In this document: piece after piece, positions 1,583 through 21,942 of the stretch
Layout: each line of letters opens with the position of its first letter
Position numbering within the stretch: position 1 is the first letter of the stretch
DNA from: a candidate division BRC1 bacterium HGW-BRC1-1
Lineage (GTDB): Bacteria; Sumerlaeota; Sumerlaeia; Sumerlaeales; Sumerlaeaceae
DNA: 64,000 nucleotides
Direction: 5' to 3'
NCBI GenBank assembly: GCA_002842095.1
Contig: PHCB01000013.1
Coordinates: 1-64,000 of the forward strand
Notes under the pieces: model-generated
Databases searched by the model: none
What the model saw: the letters and a program-made list of their open reading frames with translations, nothing else
What the model was told of the DNA's origin: nothing
Made by a program: the position numbers and the translations under genes

Positions 1583-2109
1583 GCGGATATGTCCTTCTTT
1601 ATTAGGTTAAAATATCTGGTAATGCCCCGCGCCCCGGGAGACTAACGGTGGTGTATGGCCCGCCATGTGAGCAGCACACCCCTCGGAAAAGCAAACGCAG
1701 CGCAGGGAAAAGTATTTCGCCTTCTTAAAAAGAGGAAACGCGGTCAGAACAAAATGGTGTCAAACCAAATCGCGGATGGTTCTTTTTGCGCGGTTTGTTC
1801 CAAATCAAACCCTGCCGGTTTCCAACCGCTCATGAACGCGGATGAGCCCGAATATGAAAGCGGGACAAAATGCCCGGCACATCGAAGAAAAAATCGGGGT
1901 CGGGGCTCATGCCGGGATAGAGAAAAGGGCTTCCGAGGGGGAAAGAAAAGAAAGGCGTGAACCGTGGATAAGTTCGCAATTCTCATTGACGCTTATTTCG
2001 CGCAACCGTTAGGTTTTCCGTTAACTCGCGGTGAGGTTTTATCAGCGGGGACGCCCCTCAGGCTTTTGCCGGGGTGAAAATCCATACCGTTACAGGGAGA
2101 GAACGACTC
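1583..2109. other. intergenic region, no gene supported
   Basis: A divergent gap of 527 bases between gdhA (-) and the SPOR/TPR protein (+). Short open frames here have no family signature and poor composition. A TTGACG box at 1986-1991 could be a -35 element for the downstream gene, but no good -10 follows at the right distance. A small GC-rich hairpin (GGGGACGCCCC region, about 2046-2056) lies in the 5' leader of the next gene. I see nothing that decides a function. Confidence 0.4.
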
Positions 2110-4950
2110 TTGAAGCGTCTCTTGGTGGCACTGGCCCTGGGGGCCCTGACTGTTTCATCGACGCCGGTAATCGGCGCAAATATGACCCGCAGTTTGGCGG
2201 GTGGTGCGGGGCAGGAAGCTCCCGCGCCGGGCGGCGCGATGCCGGGATTGAGTGCGGTGAATGAAGCCGCACCAACGGGCTCCGGCGGATGGCGTGTTCT
2301 CGTGGCCACGGGCATTGACGAGGGTGCGGCGCAGCGGTTTGCGGGGTCATTGAGGCTGGATGGTTACTCTCCCGTTACCGTGGAAACCGATGCCAGCGGT
2401 GGCAAAGCTGTGTATGTGGGCGACATGCCCAACGAGCCGGCGGCGCGGGCGCTGATGGATGATCTGGTGCGCGACAAGGGTTATTCGGCGGTGGGAGTGG
2501 AAGGTCCGGGCCAGGCGACGGCGCCCGTGGAGCAGAGCACTCTGCCCGCAGCGACAGCCACGACGAAAGTGTTTCGTGTGATGGTGGATGAGTTTCCGGG
2601 AGGAAGCCAACAAGCCGCCGACAGCCTGAAAAAAGCGCTGCTGGATGACGATTATCTGAACGTGGAAGTGGTGACGCAGCCCGACGGAAACATGCGTGTT
2701 ATGATGGGTTCCTTCCCCGCGGAAGCAGACGCACAAAAACTTTCGTCTCTGCTGAACAGCGAGGGTTATGCGCGGGCGTCGGTGGTGACGGGGCAGTCTG
2801 CACCCGTCGTTGCAGCGGGCGAGGCGATGCCGCAGTTGTCCAACGACGCACTCGCGGGGCTGACGCCTCAGCAGCAGCAGGAAATGTTGAAGCTGCTGCG
2901 CGAACTGAGCGCGGCCCAGGCGGGCCAGGCCATGAGTCTTCAAGAAACCGAAGATCTGCGGGCGCGTGTGAAACAAGCCCAGAGCGGAACAGGCGGCAAC
3001 ATCCTGAGCACAGCGCGCCAGAGCCAGCAGGATTTAGTAGAAAAGAAGAAACAGATAGACACGTTATACGCTGCCTCGCGCGAGGCGATGATGTCTCAGA
3101 AGTGGGACGATGCGCAGGCGAAGCTGGATGAAGTGAGAGCGATTGCTCCCGACGATGTTCTGCTGACCTCGAAGCAAATGCGGCTGGATAACCAGCGCAA
3201 GAGTGGGGCAACGGCTGATTCTCCGTCGGGAAATCTGGATGAGTTGCGTCGCCTGGCCAATGAGGCCTTTGAAAAGGGTGATCTGAAAGGCGCATTGCCA
3301 CGCTATCAAACACTGCTGGCGAACAACCCAAGCGACGGCGAGCTGGCCAATCGGATCGGCGAAATAAACAACCGCCTGGAACCTCGCAAAGAAGCCGAAG
3401 GCGAGGCGGCGGCAAGCACCATGAGTTCGCTGCCGCCGTGGGTCATGTGGGGTGGAGGCGCCCTGCTGTTGGTGGTGTTGATTCTGGCGGTGATGCAGTT
3501 CATCAACATGCGTCGGGAAAAAGAACTGATCAATGAAGTCAAAGGGATGTCGGCGTCATCGGCGAAGCAACGAGCCGCCGCCGCCGAGCCTAAAAACAAA
3601 CGCGCAGGTAGAGGCTCGATCACCGGCGCGGCAGCCGGTGGCCTGAGCGGCACCAGCACCTTAAGCGGTATGGATGCATTCGACCCCATGCCCGATCCGG
3701 TTGACATGAACGCCGACGAACAGCCCCAACCCGAAGTTCAGGAAGAATTCGTTTCAGACCAAACCAAGGCTCCGCGCTTTCAAGATGCACCGATGGGTGA
3801 GCCGGATATGTTGGTTCTGCCCGATCTGAACTTAACGCCTCCGGAAGGCGTTATCTCACGGACGCCCCCTCCGGCTCCGATACCCGAACCACCCGCCCCG
3901 GAACCAGTCGAAGAAGCACCAGTGGCCATGGGTGACTCGGTTGATTTGTCGAACTTCGATTTTTCGTCCCTCTCGTCTCCATCGGAAACGCCCGCAGCGC
4001 CCGCAAGCGCACCAGCGGATGATTCGCCGTTTGGGCCGGGCGGGTTGAATCTCGACGATTTGATGGGCGCGTCCTCATCACCAGCAGGTGTGCCGGTGCC
4101 CGAGGGAATGGAATTGCCTGATCTGGGAATTCCGCCCATGCCAACTCCATCTGAGGGGATGGGATCGTTGTCCCTGCCAGAAGATCTGGTGCCGGCCAAC
4201 CCCGGACCGCCCGATCCTCTGCCCGCCGGTTTTGAGGAAACTGCGAAACTCGACAGTGTGCCCGGTTCGGACCTGCCGCCCACCGTTGATCCCGGCGAGA
4301 CCCATCCGAAAGCGCCGGCTGCGGCACAAGAAGAAGCTCCCAAGGTGGAAGCACCTGCGGCTCCCGTAGCTCCGGCCGGACCGGAAATCTTCTTCAAGCA
4401 AGATCTGACCGAGGTGGCAGTGGGCCAGAAACCCGCCGAGTGGCAGGGCGAGTATGATTACGCCTCGCTGTTGGTTTCCGAAGAAAATCCGCCGAATGGT
4501 GCGGGCAAGTACCTCAAGTTCGAAAAGCGCACGGGTGCCGGCAGCGCGAACTTCACGCTCCGCTTCCCCAATGCGGCGGGCCGCGTGATGGTGGATTTTG
4601 ATCTGCGCTGCGACGATAAAAACAAGTACCTGCTGGGCTTCTATGTGGAGAAGGACGAGGATTTCAAGCAGTCGGTCCACACGATCGTGCACCGCATTGA
4701 TTCCAAAACCCCGCCCACATTGCGCATTCAGGGCGAGCCGATCGCCTATGAACTGGGCGCGTGGCGTCACATCCGCTTCGAGATGAATCTGTTGTCGGGC
4801 ACCGTGACGGCACTGGTGGACGGCAAACAGGTGGTGCGCGATGCAAAGCTTCCCAGCAATCCGGCGTTTGTGAACACACTCTCCATCCGCGACAACCTGG
4901 CCACCACGGGCGTATTGTGTCTGGCCAATATTCAGGTGACAGGCGTTTAG
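2110..4950 (+). CDS. SPOR-TPR-transmembrane-lectin-like protein
   Basis: About 946 residues. I chose the TTG at 2110 because it follows AGGGAGAGA and begins a clean signal sequence (MKRLLVALALGALTVSSTP); a GTG at 2074 in frame is the alternative. Two SPOR-like repeats (about residues 60-130 and 150-230 by the longer start) are followed by a coiled-coil/TPR stretch, one transmembrane helix (PWVMWGGGALLLVVLILAVM, roughly residues 445-470), a long Pro/Ala/Glu-rich linker, and a C-terminal 190-residue beta-rich domain resembling concanavalin/LamG folds. SPOR domains usually bind denuded peptidoglycan. By normal topology the SPOR part is periplasmic and the C-terminal domain cytoplasmic, which is odd for a lectin fold. 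The giant CHC2-TPR gene follows after 100 bases and may act with it. Function is unknown. Confidence 0.75.
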   Translation: MKRLLVALALGALTVSSTPVIGANMTRSLAGGAGQEAPAPGGAMPGLSAVNEAAPTGSGGWRVLVATGIDEGAAQRFAGSLRLDGYSPVTVETDASGGKAVYVGDMPNEPAARALMDDLVRDKGYSAVGVEGPGQATAPVEQSTLPAATATTKVFRVMVDEFPGGSQQAADSLKKALLDDDYLNVEVVTQPDGNMRVMMGSFPAEADAQKLSSLLNSEGYARASVVTGQSAPVVAAGEAMPQLSNDALAGLTPQQQQEMLKLLRELSAAQAGQAMSLQETEDLRARVKQAQSGTGGNILSTARQSQQDLVEKKKQIDTLYAASREAMMSQKWDDAQAKLDEVRAIAPDDVLLTSKQMRLDNQRKSGATADSPSGNLDELRRLANEAFEKGDLKGALPRYQTLLANNPSDGELANRIGEINNRLEPRKEAEGEAAASTMSSLPPWVMWGGGALLLVVLILAVMQFINMRREKELINEVKGMSASSAKQRAAAAEPKNKRAGRGSITGAAAGGLSGTSTLSGMDAFDPMPDPVDMNADEQPQPEVQEEFVSDQTKAPRFQDAPMGEPDMLVLPDLNLTPPEGVISRTPPPAPIPEPPAPEPVEEAPVAMGDSVDLSNFDFSSLSSPSETPAAPASAPADDSPFGPGGLNLDDLMGASSSPAGVPVPEGMELPDLGIPPMPTPSEGMGSLSLPEDLVPANPGPPDPLPAGFEETAKLDSVPGSDLPPTVDPGETHPKAPAAAQEEAPKVEAPAAPVAPAGPEIFFKQDLTEVAVGQKPAEWQGEYDYASLLVSEENPPNGAGKYLKFEKRTGAGSANFTLRFPNAAGRVMVDFDLRCDDKNKYLLGFYVEKDEDFKQSVHTIVHRIDSKTPPTLRIQGEPIAYELGAWRHIRFEMNLLSGTVTALVDGKQVVRDAKLPSNPAFVNTLSIRDNLATTGVLCLANIQVTGV

Positions 4951-5050: not shown

Positions 5051-8000
5051 ATGGACACTGCCGTAGCCACAGGTTTTCAGCAGGAGGTTAACCAGCGCAT
5101 TGATGCGGTGGAGCTGATCAACCATATTGGCTATGCCGTGGACAAAGTGCAGGTTGTCGGCGAGTCGATCAAATGCTTCTGCCCCATCCATAAGGATGCG
5201 CGGTTTCGGTCGCTTCTTGTGGACACAACCCGCCGCACCTTCAAATGCACGATCAAGACATGCCCGGGAGTGAGTGGTGGCTCTCTGGTAGATTTGGCCG
5301 CTCTGGCCTTGAACCTGCCACGTTTGGACGCGGCCGCTCGCGTGGCCCACGCGCTGAAGTTGCCGCTGGACCCGGAATGGTACGACAAGCTGGCGTCGTT
5401 CGCGTTGGATGAGGCCAGGGTTGCCGCGGAAGCTGGTAACGCGGAAGGGCGCGAGGCAGCCATTCGCAAGGCCATCGCATGGCATCCGTCTGCGGCGGCA
5501 CCACGGATGATGCTGGCGCAAATGCTGGCCGAGGCGGGTAATCTGGTGGCGGCCCGCGATGAGTACTGCCAGGCTGCGGAAGTGGCGCTGGAAGCGGGCA
5601 ATCACGAAACGGCAAACGAAGTGCTGACGGCCGCCACGGCGCTGTTACCCGAGGATGAAGACATTCTGTTCATGCGCATCCACGGGGCGGAACTTCGCAA
5701 CGACACGGCGATGCTGGCGGCGCTGCTGGACCAGATGGCATCCATCCGCGAAGTGGCGGGCCGGCAGGCCGACAACGTGGGGGTGCTGACCCAACTGGCC
5801 GAGTTGACGCCCGACGACGCTCAACTACATTTGCGCCTGGCTAACGCCCATGAGTTGCGCCATGATATCAACAACGCCGCCACGGCCCTGGAGAAAGCGG
5901 CCGAGTTGCTGACAGCCGAGGGCAAGGGCGACGAAGCGGTGCTACTTCTGGAGAAGATTCTCCAATTCGATCCGGGCCGCCTGAAAATGCGCGCGCGCAT
6001 TGCCGACCACTTGCTTCAGGATGGCGAGTATGACCGGGCGAAGGCGCACATTTTTGAGAGCGTGAATCTGATGATGGAGCGCGGCGACCTCGTGTTGGCC
6101 GCCGAAACCGTGCGCAAGTGGTTCAGCGTGGAGCCCGAAAGTGTGGAGGCCCACGAGAGTCTGGCGCGCATCGCCACAGACATGGGTGACCCGGCAGAGG
6201 CCGCGCGGGAGCTGAGGGCTTGCGCCGAAATTTTTCGAGCGAAAAACGACCACGCAACAACGCTTGAATACCTGTACCGGATCAAATTTCAAACCCCCGA
6301 CGATGTTGCGTTGCGTCGCGATATCGTGGACGAACTTCGCAAATCCGACAAGAACCAACCGGCGGCGCTGGAATGTCTGGACCTGGCGGAAGTGCATCAT
6401 GCGCGCAGCGAGCCCGACGAAGACACTGCGGCACTTCGCGAAGCAGCATCTCTGGACCCGACTCCCTCCTTCCGTCTGATGGTGGCCGATATTCTGGCGG
6501 ACCGGGGTCGTGCCGATGATGCGGCCGATATGGCGCTGGCTGCGGCGGACGCTGCGGAAAGTTTGGGCGATACGCAAACCGCGCTGGAATGCATCGGCCG
6601 GTTTTTGCAGTCGAAACCTGATGACGTGGAAACAATCCATCGGCGCGTTCGCCTGCTATGGAAAGCTGACGAAGAACGCGAGGCCATGGCCGCATCAGCG
6701 GATCTGGCACCGCATCTCATGGGTCCGGAGAAGGTCGCCGAGGCCCGCGAGTTGCTTGCCGAGGCCGCCGCCCACGCTTCGCTGGCGAATGGCGGGCAGG
6801 CGCTGGCACTGTATCGGTTGGCGTCTCAAGCCGGGACCGCCCACGAAGCCATGGCTTTTTATGGCGCAGCGGTGCATGAGCTGACGACCGGCGATGATTT
6901 CAGCGAGGCGCTGAGTATCGCGCTGGCAGGGCTGGAACTCGTGCCCGAAGAAGGCCGGCTGCTGACAGACGCTGCAAGGTTTGCGGGCGAAGTGGGGCTG
7001 CACACGGATCGCGCAGGTTACCTCGTACGGTTGGCGAATCAACTGAATGAGGCCGGAGAAGCGCACAAGGCGATCGAAGCGCTCGGACAGGCTCTGGATT
7101 CGACCCCCGATGAAGAACCATTGCGCCGGCGTTTGGCTGACCTTCAGTTGCAGACCTCGCAGCGCGATGAGGCTCAGGCCACATGGCGCGATTTACTCGC
7201 GCGGCAGGAGGCTCTGGCCCCCGATGATCTGGACGCACTGCTTGCCCTCAATCACGAGTATCTGGCATTGTTCCCCGAAGACCAGATGACCCGTCGTTCC
7301 CTTGCCGAGCATCTGGCCGGGGCAGGGCGTCTCGCCGAGGCGAACCGCCAATTCTCGGTGTTGTTGCATGCGGCCGAAAAGGCCGGAGATATCCCTACTG
7401 AGTTGGATGTACGCCAACGGCTGGTGCAGTTGGAGCCGGACAACAGTCGGTTGCGAATCGAGCTGGCTCAAGCCTGCGAACGCGCCGGCGATACGCCCGG
7501 TGCGGTGCAGATGCTGCGCGAAATTGCCCACGATTGTTCCGGTGCAGACAAACCGGAGGAAGCCGCCGAGGCGCTGCGTCAGGCGGTGTTGCTGGAACCG
7601 GAAGACCCAGTGTTAACGCTCACGCTGGCGAACGCCGAACGGACGGCCGGCAACATGGCCGCCTTCAAGGCAACGTTGGAACGTCTTCTGGAGCTGGGCG
7701 AAGCCGGTCCGGGGTCCGAGTTTTATCGCGAGGAAAGCCGTCGTTCACTGGAGCAAAAGCGGCTGAAGGACGCGCGGGACGAAACGCAGCGGTGGCTGCA
7801 ATTCTCACCCGAAGATTTGGATGCACGCGAGCAGTTGGCGACCATCCACATTCGGCAGAAGCATCCGCGTCTGGCAGTTGAAAACTGGCTTGCGGTGGCC
7901 GAAGCGTCGCGCGCAACCGACCCCGAACGGGCAGCGCGGGCTCTGCGCAATGTTGTGGAAACCGATCCGGAAAATACGCAGGCGCGCCAGAGTCTGAGCC

Positions 8001-11000
8001 AGGTACTGCTGGAGTCGGGTCAGGAGCAGGAAGCGCTGGAACAGATGCGGCAGCTTGCCGACAGTCTGATCGACCGCAGGGCTTACAAGGAGGCTTCCAC
8101 GCTTCTTGCGCGCATTCTGGAGTACGACACCCAATCGGTGGATACGCTCCGGCGTCTGGCTTCGCTGGTGCATGAACATGAAGGTTTCGAGAAGGCCGCC
8201 CCGAACATCCGCAAGTTGCTGGCGGTTATGCGCGAGTCTTCCGCGCCCGACGACGTGGCCGCGCAGTATGAGTCCATCGTCAAACTCCAGGGTGCGGATC
8301 TCAGTTTCCGTTCGGAATTTGCCGATTACCTGACTGAACTCGGGCGAACCGCCGAGGCAAAGTCTCAGATGCTTCAATTGGCTCAAGTTTATCGCGATGA
8401 GTTCAACGATCCGGTTCGAGCCATTCAGTTGTTCGGTCGCGCCACATCGCAGTTTCCGGAGCCCGCCGACGCTCGCATTTTTGAGGAGGTCGCATCGCTG
8501 CATCTGGCTTTGAACGTGCCGGAGTTTGCTGCGGAAGCGTTTCGTGAAGCCGCGCGTTTGTTCCTGCAACAGGACGACCTGGCCGGTGCCGAAAGCGTGA
8601 TGCTTCGTTTAATCGATCTGCCGGCATCGCTCCCCGCAGACCTTGCCCGACTGGGACGTATCCAGCACATGCAGGGTCGCGAAGAGGAAGCGGCTGCGAA
8701 CCTCCGCCGTGCGTTGGACGAGGGAGATGCAGCTGCATCGCTGAGCCCCGGCGAACGGCGCGAGATGTGCGATCTGCTTCTTGAAGCCGATCCGCACGAC
8801 GTAAAAGCCATCATCATGTTGCTCGACTCACTGTCGGTCGAGGAAGCATCGTCGCGCTCCCATGAGATTCAGGCGCGGCTTGCCCTGGATGGGAAAACGG
8901 CGGAACGTACCGCGGTGCTGCGCCACGCGGTGACGCTGTCGCCCGACGATATTGGCCTTCATCGCCATCTGGCCGGTGCATTACGGGAGGAGGGAGAACA
9001 GACCCTTCTGGCCCACGAACTGACCATCCTCTGCCGCCATGCCATCGAGATGAATCTGCCCGATGACGCCAGCACGTTGCTTGACGAACTGACGGACCTG
9101 CCGCTGGATGCCGAGGCAACGCTGGCTGTGGGCGATTTGCTGAACAGCGCCGGTCACACCGAGAAAGCGGTGCACCGCTACTGCGAGGCAGCGCAGGCTT
9201 TTGCCGATGCGGACGACGAAACCCATGCGGCATCGGCATTGCGAAATGCGGCCGAGCTTAGCTCGTCTTCACTGCCCAGCAGTTCCGTGGCGGCAATTTT
9301 CCGGCGTACGCGGGGCGACCGCATGTTGGTGCCCGTGGTGCGCGATCTGCTGGACAAAGCGCTGAAGGCGCGCAATCGGACGCCTTCGCTTCTCATCGGC
9401 ACGGCCCTCCTTGAAACATGTACGCCGAAAGAAGTGGACGAGCTTCTGCGCCACATCGATAAAACGGCAGGAAGCGGTTTCCTCGCCACCATTGGTGGGG
9501 CCCACACCGACTGGCTGTTGGCGCGTGACCAGACCACCGAGGCCCTGCGCATCATTCGATTGATCACTGAAACAGCCCCTGATACGCCCGAGTCGTGGTG
9601 GCTCGCCTCGCAGATTTATCGCAAGGTCGAGAACATGTCCGCCGCCGGCGAAGCCTCCTTAAAAGCGGCCCAGTTGTTCTCACAGGCAGGCGCGGTGACC
9701 GAGGAGGAGACATGTTATCGCGAAGCCCTTGAAGAGCTTCCTGATGACATTGGCGTTCTGGAAACGCTGGCTCATTTTTACGAGCGTGAGCGCCGGTTGC
9801 AGGAATCCGTGGAAATGATGCACCGCATCGTGAGCATGGCGGAGCGCGAGGACGACGCAGAAACAACGCTGCGCTGGTTGAGCCGCATAGTTGAGGTGCT
9901 GCCCGGCGATGCAGTCGCCCGCGAACATATCGTGCAAAACCTGCTGAAGGAAAACCGCACGGGCGAGGCAGTTACGCATCTGATGAAGCTGGCCGGCGAC
10001 CACGTGAACGCCGGACGTATCGAAGAGGCGATTGCAACCTACGAGCAGGCCCATGTGCAGCAGCCAAACAATGCGGAGATTCTGACCTGTCTGGTGGATC
10101 TGGTAACGGAGAACAATCAGCCCGAGCGTTTCGACAAGTTCAGCATCGCTCTCGCCGAGGTACACGCCGCTAACAGCGACCTGAAACTGGCCGGTCTCAT
10201 CCTGAACACCCTTCTTCAGACGCACCCCGACAATCTCGCGGCGATGACGCGGCTGGCGGAGTTTTCCCGGCAAGCCGACGATACGCGCACCGAAATTCGC
10301 ACGCTCAATCGACTGGGTCACAAGCAGGCAAAAGCGCGCAACTACGAGGCTGCGGTGGCCGCATTTGAACGGTTGCACGAAATCCAGCCCGATGACACCG
10401 ACACGATGGAAATGCTGGTCGATTGTTGCGTGGCCGGCTCGATGACGGACAAAGCAGCGTTGTACGCAGTGCGTCAGCTTGATCTGGCGCGATTGAATAA
10501 CGACCCGGTCTTGCTGCAAAAGGCGGCTGGCAAGGTTCTGATCATCGACGCAGATAACCCCGTGGCTCTCGACGCCATGGGCAACTGTCTGGCGGAAGAA
10601 ACACCCACCGACGCCGCAAAATATCTGCACCGCGCGGCCAAACAATTTGAGGCCCTGGGCGATGTCAGCGGGGCGGCTCTCTCACTTCAGAAGGCCCTGG
10701 AACTGGCCCCCGACGATGCCGGAGGCTGGGCAACCCTCGCACGACATCATAAAACCCTCAATGATCTTCCGGCACAAAACCAGGCCCTGATGATGCAGGC
10801 GAATGTTCTGGCGGGCAAGGGAGAGAAGGCTGCCGCTGCCAAGATTGTGAAAAGCGTTCTGGCGGGCAAGGATGTTGAAACGGAGATTCATGAGAAAGCC
10901 CTTCTCATCTGGAAAACCATCGATGATACCAAGGCCGCCATGGTCGAGCGCATTCACCTGGCCGGGCATTACATCAAGGAAGGCAACTATGCCGCAGCGG

Positions 11001-12847
11001 AAGAAACCATCGAGCGCGGCCTGACAGCAGAACCCGAGAATCTTGAGCTTCAGGAGCAGCGTATTGCTTTGTTGAAATCCTCGGGGCGTCCTGAAGAGAC
11101 AACATTTCACATGCGTGGATTGGCGGAGCGTCTGCTGGCGGCGGGCGAACTTCGCCGGGCGGCAGACCTGTACTCAGAACTGCTGACTTTAACACCCCAC
11201 CTCATTGATGTGCGTCGTCAACTTGCCGACCTCTGGCGCGAGTTGGGCGATAATGAGCGGGCCGACGAAGAAACCGTGGAAGCCATGCGGTTAATGCTGA
11301 AGGACGATGAACACGAAAGCGCACGGGAACTGGCCGATGAACTGCTGGCAAAGCGCCCCGGCGATGTGGATATCCGGCACCAAGTCGCTTCGGTTTTCCT
11401 TGGCGAGGGCCGCCCGGAGGTTGCATCGCGCTGGTTCGTCCAGGCCGCCTCGATGGCGCTCCAGGCTGGCGATCAAAAGCGCCAGATGGAACTGCTCCGC
11501 ATGGCTGTCACTGCCCGCCCGGGCGCGCCCGAATATCTCGAACAACTTGCCGAAGCCTGTGTGGCGGCGGGCGAAAACACGCAAGCAGCCGACGCCTATC
11601 ACCGCCTTGTGGAGCGGCACATAGAACAGCATCGCTTTAATGACGCGGTGAACGCTGGCAAAAGTTTGCGTGCTCTTGCTCCGCAAGACCCCAAGGCACG
11701 CCGGACACTAATTGACCTGTATGAGAAGATGGGCGCGCGCGAGGAGCGGATTGCCGAGATGCAGGATCTTGCAGCTCTCGAACGCTCGCTGGGCAACGTC
11801 GAGGAAGCTGTGGATGTGTATCGCAAACTGACTCAGCTCAAACCCGACGATGTGCCCCTGTTGCAGCGCTACATTGAACTCTTCGAGCAGGTGGGCAACG
11901 AAGTTGAACTGCTGGATGATTATCTCCGCCTTGCCGACGCCCAGGTGCGACAGGGGCAATTTGTGGAAGCCACGAAGACCTACGAAAAATTAATGGCGGT
12001 CAATCGCCGCAGCACATTGGGGCGCGAACGATTCATCCAGTTCCTGCAAACCCTCGGGCAAAAATCTCGTGCCGTTGCGGAAATGACCAAGCTGGCGGAA
12101 ATATACACCACCTCCAATCGCCATGAGGAGGCGACCCGCACGCTCCAGGTGGCCTTTGGTCTCAACCCGGAAAATTATGAGCTGGCTGATATGCTGGCGG
12201 AATCTGCGGAGAAAGCCGGCGATGTCGGTGAAGCCGTTGCCGCATGTGACACTGTGGCGGCCAGGTTGGAAAAGAACGATCCTCAGAAAGCAGCGGCCCT
12301 TCTGAAGAAGTTGTTAAACCTCTCCCCCGAGCGACGTGACGTCCGTGAACGACTTGTGGCGCTATTGGAGCGTCTGAGTGACAAAGCTGGGATGGTGGTT
12401 CAATTACGCCGTTTGGCAGAACAGTTGGAGAGCGAGGGATCCGCGGCACAGGCAGAACCTCTGCGGGCCCGCGCAACAACGCTGGCGGGTGAAGCCCGGG
12501 CAGAATTGGAGAAACGTGCCGACGACCATTCCGCCCCCCCATCCCGACGCTATGACGATCTGGTGACCCTCGGTGATTTGCAGACCGAAAGTGGCGATGT
12601 GGACGAAGCATTGGCAGCTTATAATCAGGCACGAAAGATACGCGATGACAACCCCGTCCTCATCCGGAAGGTAATCGATTGTCGGCTCATGGTGGCCCCG
12701 GAGCATGAAGCCCTGCCCGATATGCTGGCCTTGGCAGCCTGCCACGCTCACTTCGGTGATGCGCGAAAGGCGCAAGAAGTCTACGAACAGGTTCTGGGCA
12801 TTGATCCGCGCAACAAAAAAGCGCGCACGGCCCTCGGCATGATCTGA
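5051..12847 (+). CDS. giant CHC2 zinc-finger TPR repeat protein
   Basis: 2598 residues. The N-terminus (residues about 15-95) looks like the CHC2 zinc-binding domain of DnaG primase: C42, C44, H47 in KCFCPIH, then C66 and C71 in KCTIKTC, followed by GGSLVDLAAL, matching the GGxxxDxx block that follows the finger in primase. The second Cys pair is C-x4-C, wider than the usual C-x2-C. The remaining roughly 2500 residues are tandem TPR helices with 34-residue-like periodicity (e.g. LRLANAHELRHDINNAATAL). No TOPRIM or polymerase domain, signal peptide or membrane helix is seen, so it should be a cytosolic scaffold. The ATG has GAGGA just upstream. It follows the SPOR/TPR membrane gene and ends before a bidirectional terminator. 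Its role, and whether the finger binds nucleic acid, are unknown. Confidence 0.85.
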   Translation: MDTAVATGFQQEVNQRIDAVELINHIGYAVDKVQVVGESIKCFCPIHKDARFRSLLVDTTRRTFKCTIKTCPGVSGGSLVDLAALALNLPRLDAAARVAHALKLPLDPEWYDKLASFALDEARVAAEAGNAEGREAAIRKAIAWHPSAAAPRMMLAQMLAEAGNLVAARDEYCQAAEVALEAGNHETANEVLTAATALLPEDEDILFMRIHGAELRNDTAMLAALLDQMASIREVAGRQADNVGVLTQLAELTPDDAQLHLRLANAHELRHDINNAATALEKAAELLTAEGKGDEAVLLLEKILQFDPGRLKMRARIADHLLQDGEYDRAKAHIFESVNLMMERGDLVLAAETVRKWFSVEPESVEAHESLARIATDMGDPAEAARELRACAEIFRAKNDHATTLEYLYRIKFQTPDDVALRRDIVDELRKSDKNQPAALECLDLAEVHHARSEPDEDTAALREAASLDPTPSFRLMVADILADRGRADDAADMALAAADAAESLGDTQTALECIGRFLQSKPDDVETIHRRVRLLWKADEEREAMAASADLAPHLMGPEKVAEARELLAEAAAHASLANGGQALALYRLASQAGTAHEAMAFYGAAVHELTTGDDFSEALSIALAGLELVPEEGRLLTDAARFAGEVGLHTDRAGYLVRLANQLNEAGEAHKAIEALGQALDSTPDEEPLRRRLADLQLQTSQRDEAQATWRDLLARQEALAPDDLDALLALNHEYLALFPEDQMTRRSLAEHLAGAGRLAEANRQFSVLLHAAEKAGDIPTELDVRQRLVQLEPDNSRLRIELAQACERAGDTPGAVQMLREIAHDCSGADKPEEAAEALRQAVLLEPEDPVLTLTLANAERTAGNMAAFKATLERLLELGEAGPGSEFYREESRRSLEQKRLKDARDETQRWLQFSPEDLDAREQLATIHIRQKHPRLAVENWLAVAEASRATDPERAARALRNVVETDPENTQARQSLSQVLLESGQEQEALEQMRQLADSLIDRRAYKEASTLLARILEYDTQSVDTLRRLASLVHEHEGFEKAAPNIRKLLAVMRESSAPDDVAAQYESIVKLQGADLSFRSEFADYLTELGRTAEAKSQMLQLAQVYRDEFNDPVRAIQLFGRATSQFPEPADARIFEEVASLHLALNVPEFAAEAFREAARLFLQQDDLAGAESVMLRLIDLPASLPADLARLGRIQHMQGREEEAAANLRRALDEGDAAASLSPGERREMCDLLLEADPHDVKAIIMLLDSLSVEEASSRSHEIQARLALDGKTAERTAVLRHAVTLSPDDIGLHRHLAGALREEGEQTLLAHELTILCRHAIEMNLPDDASTLLDELTDLPLDAEATLAVGDLLNSAGHTEKAVHRYCEAAQAFADADDETHAASALRNAAELSSSSLPSSSVAAIFRRTRGDRMLVPVVRDLLDKALKARNRTPSLLIGTALLETCTPKEVDELLRHIDKTAGSGFLATIGGAHTDWLLARDQTTEALRIIRLITETAPDTPESWWLASQIYRKVENMSAAGEASLKAAQLFSQAGAVTEEETCYREALEELPDDIGVLETLAHFYERERRLQESVEMMHRIVSMAEREDDAETTLRWLSRIVEVLPGDAVAREHIVQNLLKENRTGEAVTHLMKLAGDHVNAGRIEEAIATYEQAHVQQPNNAEILTCLVDLVTENNQPERFDKFSIALAEVHAANSDLKLAGLILNTLLQTHPDNLAAMTRLAEFSRQADDTRTEIRTLNRLGHKQAKARNYEAAVAAFERLHEIQPDDTDTMEMLVDCCVAGSMTDKAALYAVRQLDLARLNNDPVLLQKAAGKVLIIDADNPVALDAMGNCLAEETPTDAAKYLHRAAKQFEALGDVSGAALSLQKALELAPDDAGGWATLARHHKTLNDLPAQNQALMMQANVLAGKGEKAAAAKIVKSVLAGKDVETEIHEKALLIWKTIDDTKAAMVERIHLAGHYIKEGNYAAAEETIERGLTAEPENLELQEQRIALLKSSGRPEETTFHMRGLAERLLAAGELRRAADLYSELLTLTPHLIDVRRQLADLWRELGDNERADEETVEAMRLMLKDDEHESARELADELLAKRPGDVDIRHQVASVFLGEGRPEVASRWFVQAASMALQAGDQKRQMELLRMAVTARPGAPEYLEQLAEACVAAGENTQAADAYHRLVERHIEQHRFNDAVNAGKSLRALAPQDPKARRTLIDLYEKMGAREERIAEMQDLAALERSLGNVEEAVDVYRKLTQLKPDDVPLLQRYIELFEQVGNEVELLDDYLRLADAQVRQGQFVEATKTYEKLMAVNRRSTLGRERFIQFLQTLGQKSRAVAEMTKLAEIYTTSNRHEEATRTLQVAFGLNPENYELADMLAESAEKAGDVGEAVAACDTVAARLEKNDPQKAAALLKKLLNLSPERRDVRERLVALLERLSDKAGMVVQLRRLAEQLESEGSAAQAEPLRARATTLAGEARAELEKRADDHSAPPSRRYDDLVTLGDLQTESGDVDEALAAYNQARKIRDDNPVLIRKVIDCRLMVAPEHEALPDMLALAACHAHFGDARKAQEVYEQVLGIDPRNKKARTALGMI

Positions 12848-20208: not shown

Positions 20209-21942
<1,734 letters not shown>

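Follow-up and report, generated by a model that had tools for sequence, protein, structure and literature searches.

The window, a stretch of 64,000 nucleotides from a Candidatus Sumerlaeota (BRC1) bacterium, encodes a giant protein whose N-terminus is a genuine DnaG-type (CHC2) zinc-binding domain and whose remaining length is made up of TPR-like repeats with an unusual period. The giant belongs to a phylum-wide set of old paralogues, a few other phyla included, and its gene is genetically linked to that of a protein with SPOR domains, hereafter the partner. These results point to an undescribed family of cell-organising proteins. We speculate, with a probability of roughly 40%, that the giant is a cytoplasmic hub tethered via its partner to septal or polar peptidoglycan and working like SgmX or FimV/HubP.

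Table 1. Positions in the window of the giant, its partner and their parts
Feature	Position	Strand	Evidence
Partner, 958 aa: SPOR, TPR-like, one putative TM segment, linker, jelly roll	2074..4950	+	SPOR match; linkage
Best SPOR domain of partner, residues 70-138	2281..2487	+	PF05036 E 4.6e-10 for the protein, two stretches
Core of predicted internal TM segment of partner, residues 453-471	3430..3486	+	Hydropathy, window protein and orthologues
Predicted C-terminal jelly roll of partner, residues 766-958	4369..4947	+	26-orthologue alignment, model, fold matches
Finger-solenoid giant, type A, 2598 aa	5051..12847	+	Open frame; full-length orthologues
DnaG-type (CHC2) zinc-binding domain, residues 10-108	5078..5374	+	PF01807 sub-cut-off; PDB profile; model; fold search
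Zinc ligands: C44 5180-5182, H47 5189-5191, C66 5246-5248, C71 5261-5263	5180..5263	+	
About 46 TPR-like units of 54 residues, residues ~115-2590	5393..12820	+	Autocorrelation; unit profile; Pfam TPR models

Results

The start codon of the giant agrees with the starts of its orthologues (MDQ.., MDV..), of which the full-length ones measure 2601-2610 aa and share 33-37% identity with the window protein. Five orthologues from one genome family can be aligned over their full length with only a few gaps and share 33-49% identity; the best-conserved stretch of this alignment is the first 54 residues, in the finger, and further peaks lie at residues ~1081-1188, 1513-1566 and 2215-2376. The giant has no evident TM segment or signal. 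A Pfam search over all 2598 residues found no TOPRIM or RNA polymerase domain, confirming the original prediction that the primase catalytic domain is missing, and since the polymerase domain is missing, the giant is no primase on its own. The pair of giant and partner adjoins rplQ-rpoA-rpsD, which lies in the opposite orientation. Elsewhere in the window (20209-21942, minus strand) is a gene for a histidine kinase with an N-terminal FHA domain and a GAF domain.

A single-sequence search left the CHC2 assignment of the N-terminus open because the Pfam CHC2 model (PF01807), searched against the first 129 residues, matched residues 10-67 with an E value of 7e-4 and 19.8 bits, under its 24.9-bit cut-off. 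A finger profile built from 77 family members (profile A3) matched among PDB sequences only the DnaG zinc domains 2au3 (3.5e-7) and 1d0q (1.6e-3), and in a profile comparison it matched the DnaG of the window's own genome with an E value of 5.8e-9. The AlphaFold2 model of residues 1-135 has a mean pLDDT of 94.7, and Foldseek returned 2au3 and 1d0q as its only significant matches, with VIA-align Z scores of 9.9 and 9.1 to the two DnaG structures and human Twinkle next. Profile, model and fold search thus all point to DnaG primase, as the original prediction of a CHC2-type finger had it. Because the model matches the DnaG zinc domains, the fold implies that C44, H47, C66 and C71 come together, and a scattered arrangement of these residues is unlikely. 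All four are invariant in 16 of 16 divergent members, and the four zinc ligands are at least 90% conserved among the 77 members. The five Cys/His residues and the GGSLVDLAAL stretch noted originally are all where they were said to be; C42, however, is not a conserved ligand in the 16 members. Some members have Cys as the second ligand (CPLC), which is compatible with metal binding; among the DnaA-type relatives, those of L126, L127, L129, L130, L131 and L132 have Cys or some other residue in place of the finger His (CPLC and similar).

Beyond the finger, the autocorrelation of TPR scores along the giant has its maximum at 54 residues and an echo at twice that distance, 108, and a profile of the 54-residue unit finds spacings of 54 or near-multiples over most of the protein, with less regularity near residues 700-1300. 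Many Pfam TPR models score over their cut-offs. The expectation of TPR-like repeats up to the C-terminus therefore holds as to their kind but not as to their length, as the unit is 54 residues and not the canonical 34. The number of repeats, left uncounted originally, comes to about 46 units, and the claim of a very large scaffold is supported. The repeat consensus, ARELRRLAEALTAAGDFEEALEALERLLELTPDDLELRERLADLLRKAGDTEEA, reads as a probable three helices per unit, and from the repeats seen in the sequence the whole region would be expected to take the shape of a solenoid. The median spacing is 54 in nearly all relatives with several units (56 in the giant of L074). Among the other proteins of the fetched loci we found no second long array with this period except the rest of a broken family gene (L113), and an ordinary TPR lipoprotein in these loci has a period of 34. 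The 54-residue period is a clear sequence signature for finding more members.

A search of 291 genomes gave strong matches to the family (E < 1e-20) in 37 of the 40 Sumerlaeota genomes, up to five genes each, and outside that phylum in three genomes only (G076, G167 and G221); ordinary DnaG proteins scored far lower than family members in the same search. The contig scan used an alignment of seven sequences, one of 16 being too divergent. The named relatives come from Candidatus Sumerlaeota (BRC1) and one UBP4 genome; they are the basis for the assignment to the phylum, since no 16S sequence turned up in the window's genome. Four types can be told apart: type A, that of the window (about 1250-3110 aa); type B, in which finger and solenoid are followed by a DnaA ATPase (1350-2150 aa); type C, of ~490 aa (about 430-600 aa), with a C-terminal helical stretch of its own; and type D, a stand-alone finger of 128-142 aa. 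In a tree of the finger domains, type B forms one clade, type C nearly so and type A mostly so, with modest support, as would be expected of old paralogues. The window's genome has one gene each of types A, B and C, plus a normal DnaA and a normal DnaG. A search of viral contigs found no relatives, so a phage origin is unsupported.

Several candidates were set aside. The Phycisphaerae match L066 proved to be a GGDEF protein rather than a relative, the G049 match (L040) and most weak matches outside the phylum look like ordinary DnaG, and a PilZ domain suspected by eye in L039 has no Pfam match. We also note a finger joined to a degenerate GGDEF-like domain, by eye without the GGDEF motif (L083:7883-8743, in G167), and, outside the phylum, a 754-aa protein with a weaker CHC2-like N-terminus (L085:5921-8185, in G201).

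Type B proteins, which end in a DnaA AAA+ domain (e.g. L033:4225-9585, that is G000:C8, and those of L035, L038 and L043), occur in most Sumerlaeota genomes. Finger and DnaA part were found in one frame in 26 genomes checked, and 32 of the 40 Sumerlaeota genomes have PF00308 within a frame of more than 600 aa. The DnaA part matches PF00308 with an E value of 3.9e-64 and is 39-46% identical to the DnaA of the same cell. Alignment indicates that it retains Walker A and B, the sensor motifs and the arginine finger, so that the fused paralogue carries the features of DnaA domain III (AAA+, Walker A/B, sensors), and that the proteins end after this domain, the DnaA-box-binding domain IV being missing. 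G000:C8 scores higher with the DnaA profile (322.6 bits) than with the Hda profile (88.3 bits), both below cut-off. In several genome families the DnaA-type gene is followed by genes for two proteins without a Pfam match (L043:552-2609, L043:2606-3193 and relatives), in L043 one small and membrane-type and the other of ~685 aa. In L113 (G001:C14) the DnaA-type gene is split, likely by an assembly gap and not by a real break because the break falls at a run of N.

The partner gene lies directly upstream of the giant gene. Besides SPOR, its product has weak TPR matches, a signal-like start, and basic residues after the internal TM segment, followed by a long linker. Its C-terminal domain has a mean column identity of 56% across 26 orthologues, and the model (pLDDT 95.1) has lectin-like fold matches. 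The jelly roll is single-copy in 38 of the 40 Sumerlaeota genomes and occurs in one of 251 genomes outside the phylum (G167). The partner sits directly beside a type A gene in 22 Sumerlaeota genomes and in G167, and away from the giant in about 16 Sumerlaeota genomes; in G003 and G027 it is present and no family gene was detected. The partner of G003 (L133:6578-8497) has no SPOR domains, and no finger-solenoid protein was detected in that genome.

Type C genes are immediately followed by PilB/PilT-type ATPase genes in G013, G026 and G034, which form one family, and in G021 and G037 of another, and adjoin clpB and der in the window's own genome family. In G076 and G221 a finger-TPR gene is followed by an ExeA-like ATPase gene and two PilB/GspE-like genes. 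PilT-family ATPase matches are unusually many, occurring in all 40 Sumerlaeota genomes with 6-22 matches each (17 in the window's genome), which makes adjacency to PilB/PilT weak evidence alone. Among the NCBIfam profiles, that of SgmX matches the type C protein of the window's genome best, over 175 residues and below cut-off, and it is also among several profiles that the window protein matches below their cut-offs (NF052243, 68.1 bits against a curated cut-off of 1800). Such a match is weak by itself because every TPR protein matches several TPR families. Neither the window's genome nor its family has MglB-type Roadblock proteins, which belong to the SgmX system. These links to the type IV pilus are suggestive only.

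Discussion

The tethered hub that we propose would be a cytoplasmic scaffold of ~286 kDa, with a DnaG-type zinc ribbon at the tip of one very long solenoid whose ~46 units might offer an extensive surface for docking. The denuded glycans to which SPOR domains bind are enriched at the septum (PMC6895207); with its own SPOR domains the partner could grip denuded peptidoglycan there and at young poles. Judging from the charges, the one TM segment of the partner would span the inner membrane and leave the C-terminal jelly roll in the cytoplasm, where it would bind the giant. FimV/HubP proteins likewise combine a wall-binding domain in the periplasm, a TM segment and a TPR-containing cytoplasmic part (PMC12918733), and the cytoplasmic TPR protein SgmX recruits PilB to the pole (PMC7519303). 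The pair might be a division-site or pole organiser, i.e., a wall-anchored platform gathering cytoplasmic machines, with specialised paralogues, one bearing a DnaA AAA+ ATPase and one encoded beside pilus-type motor ATPase genes in two genome families. In favour of this proposal are the adjacency of the two genes in 22 Sumerlaeota genomes and in G167, the type C genes beside PilB/PilT-type genes in five genomes of two families, the PilB/GspE-like genes near finger-TPR genes in G076 and G221, the below-cut-off SgmX profile matches, and a giant without an evident TM segment or signal. Against it stand the roughly 16 genomes with an unlinked partner, the partners of G003 and G027 without a detected family gene, and the missing MglB-type Roadblock proteins; moreover, a lectin-like jelly-roll fold on the cytoplasmic side would be unusual.

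The ligand of the finger is most likely either a nucleic acid or a protein partner. The finger may bind DNA or sense nucleic acid, and the DNA-tethered scaffold of the original prediction is conceivable mainly because of the DnaA-bearing paralogue, although other readings exist. Hda acts on DnaA in other bacteria, and the DnaA-bearing paralogue might similarly act on DnaA or on origin DNA; the finger would then bind ssDNA or RNA as in DnaG, and the family would link the chromosome or the replication machinery to the envelope or regulate initiation. We regard this as doubtful. In its favour, one polypeptide in the 26 genomes checked joins two domains familiar from the initiation of replication, the DnaG zinc finger and a DnaA ATPase whose Walker, sensor and arginine-finger motifs are intact. 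Against it, the charge of the finger is near neutral (family median pI 6.1), domain IV is missing from the DnaA part, the window protein lacks such a part altogether, its conserved neighbour is an envelope protein, and type IV pilus-type ATPase genes adjoin some relatives. That last observation would instead suit a family serving as a whole the type IV pilus and related machines, recruiting motor ATPases like SgmX, with the partner as a FimV-like pilus landmark. We find this improbable: the PilB/PilT-type genes beside the ~490-aa paralogue, the PilB/GspE-like genes near relatives outside the phylum, the PilT-family genes in every Sumerlaeota genome and the SgmX profile matches agree with it, yet the neighbours of the same paralogue in the window's own genome family are clpB and der, no pilus genes adjoin the giant gene, the many pilus-type ATPases per genome weaken any adjacency, and the DnaA domain is hard to fit.

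It might also be supposed that the finger does no more than cap the solenoid structurally, and that the giant is a general protein-binding scaffold for envelope building which plays no part in polarity or with nucleic acids, given that the finger leads straight into a helix (residues 109-132) at the first repeat. To this we attach little credence, since fingers of 128-142 aa also occur on their own and no other part of the giant is as well conserved as the finger, more than a simple cap would require. A more ambitious extension of the tethered hub seems to us a long shot: a phylum-wide system could couple replication-type modules to the dividing wall, the finger reading single-stranded nucleic acid, one paralogue contributing the DnaA ATPase at the far end of a similar solenoid, and the giant being held at the septum by its SPOR partner, so that a single family of giant scaffolds would link the state of replication with division or pole building.

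Whichever reading is preferred, primases are not the only place where a DnaG zinc domain is put to use: here it belongs to a large family of scaffolds, mostly inherited vertically and found almost exclusively in one uncultured phylum, with a DnaA ATPase fused on in one branch. Should the pairing of giant and partner reflect physical docking, the two would represent a bacterial cell-organising hub of a new type, and they would be a direct test case of how replication-type proteins are connected with envelope landmarks. We found no description of the family in the literature outside subscription journals (CHC2 with TPR, DnaA with TPR, or a 54-residue three-helix repeat), and two Sumerlaeota genome papers mention neither TPR, nor the zinc finger, nor DnaA.

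The finger shares with the DnaG zinc domain (PF01807; 2au3, 1d0q) its fold, its ligand order (CxxH...C..C) and its N-terminal position, but its second ligand pair is C-x4-C, in contrast to C-x2-C in DnaG, and it is joined to a solenoid instead of a TOPRIM or helicase-binding part. Like SgmX of Myxococcus (NF052243), the giant has cytoplasmic TPR-like repeats, and its matches, which fall in the N-terminal part of that profile, are long and without large gaps; however, SgmX has 1060 aa against 2598, the scores are far below the profile cut-off, a zinc finger is not described for SgmX (PMC7519303), and the window's genome lacks MglB-type proteins. Like FimV/HubP, the partner combines a wall-binding domain in the periplasm with a single TM segment and an extended cytoplasmic part, as far as the charges indicate sidedness, but it has SPOR and no LysM match in Pfam, ends in a jelly roll in place of the FimV TPR domain, and leaves the solenoid to a separate protein, the giant. 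Finally, G000:C8 has the AAA+ domain III of DnaA and Hda with its Walker, sensor and arginine-finger motifs and, like Hda, no domain IV, but unlike in either of them this AAA+ domain sits at the end of a finger-solenoid protein of 1350-2150 aa.
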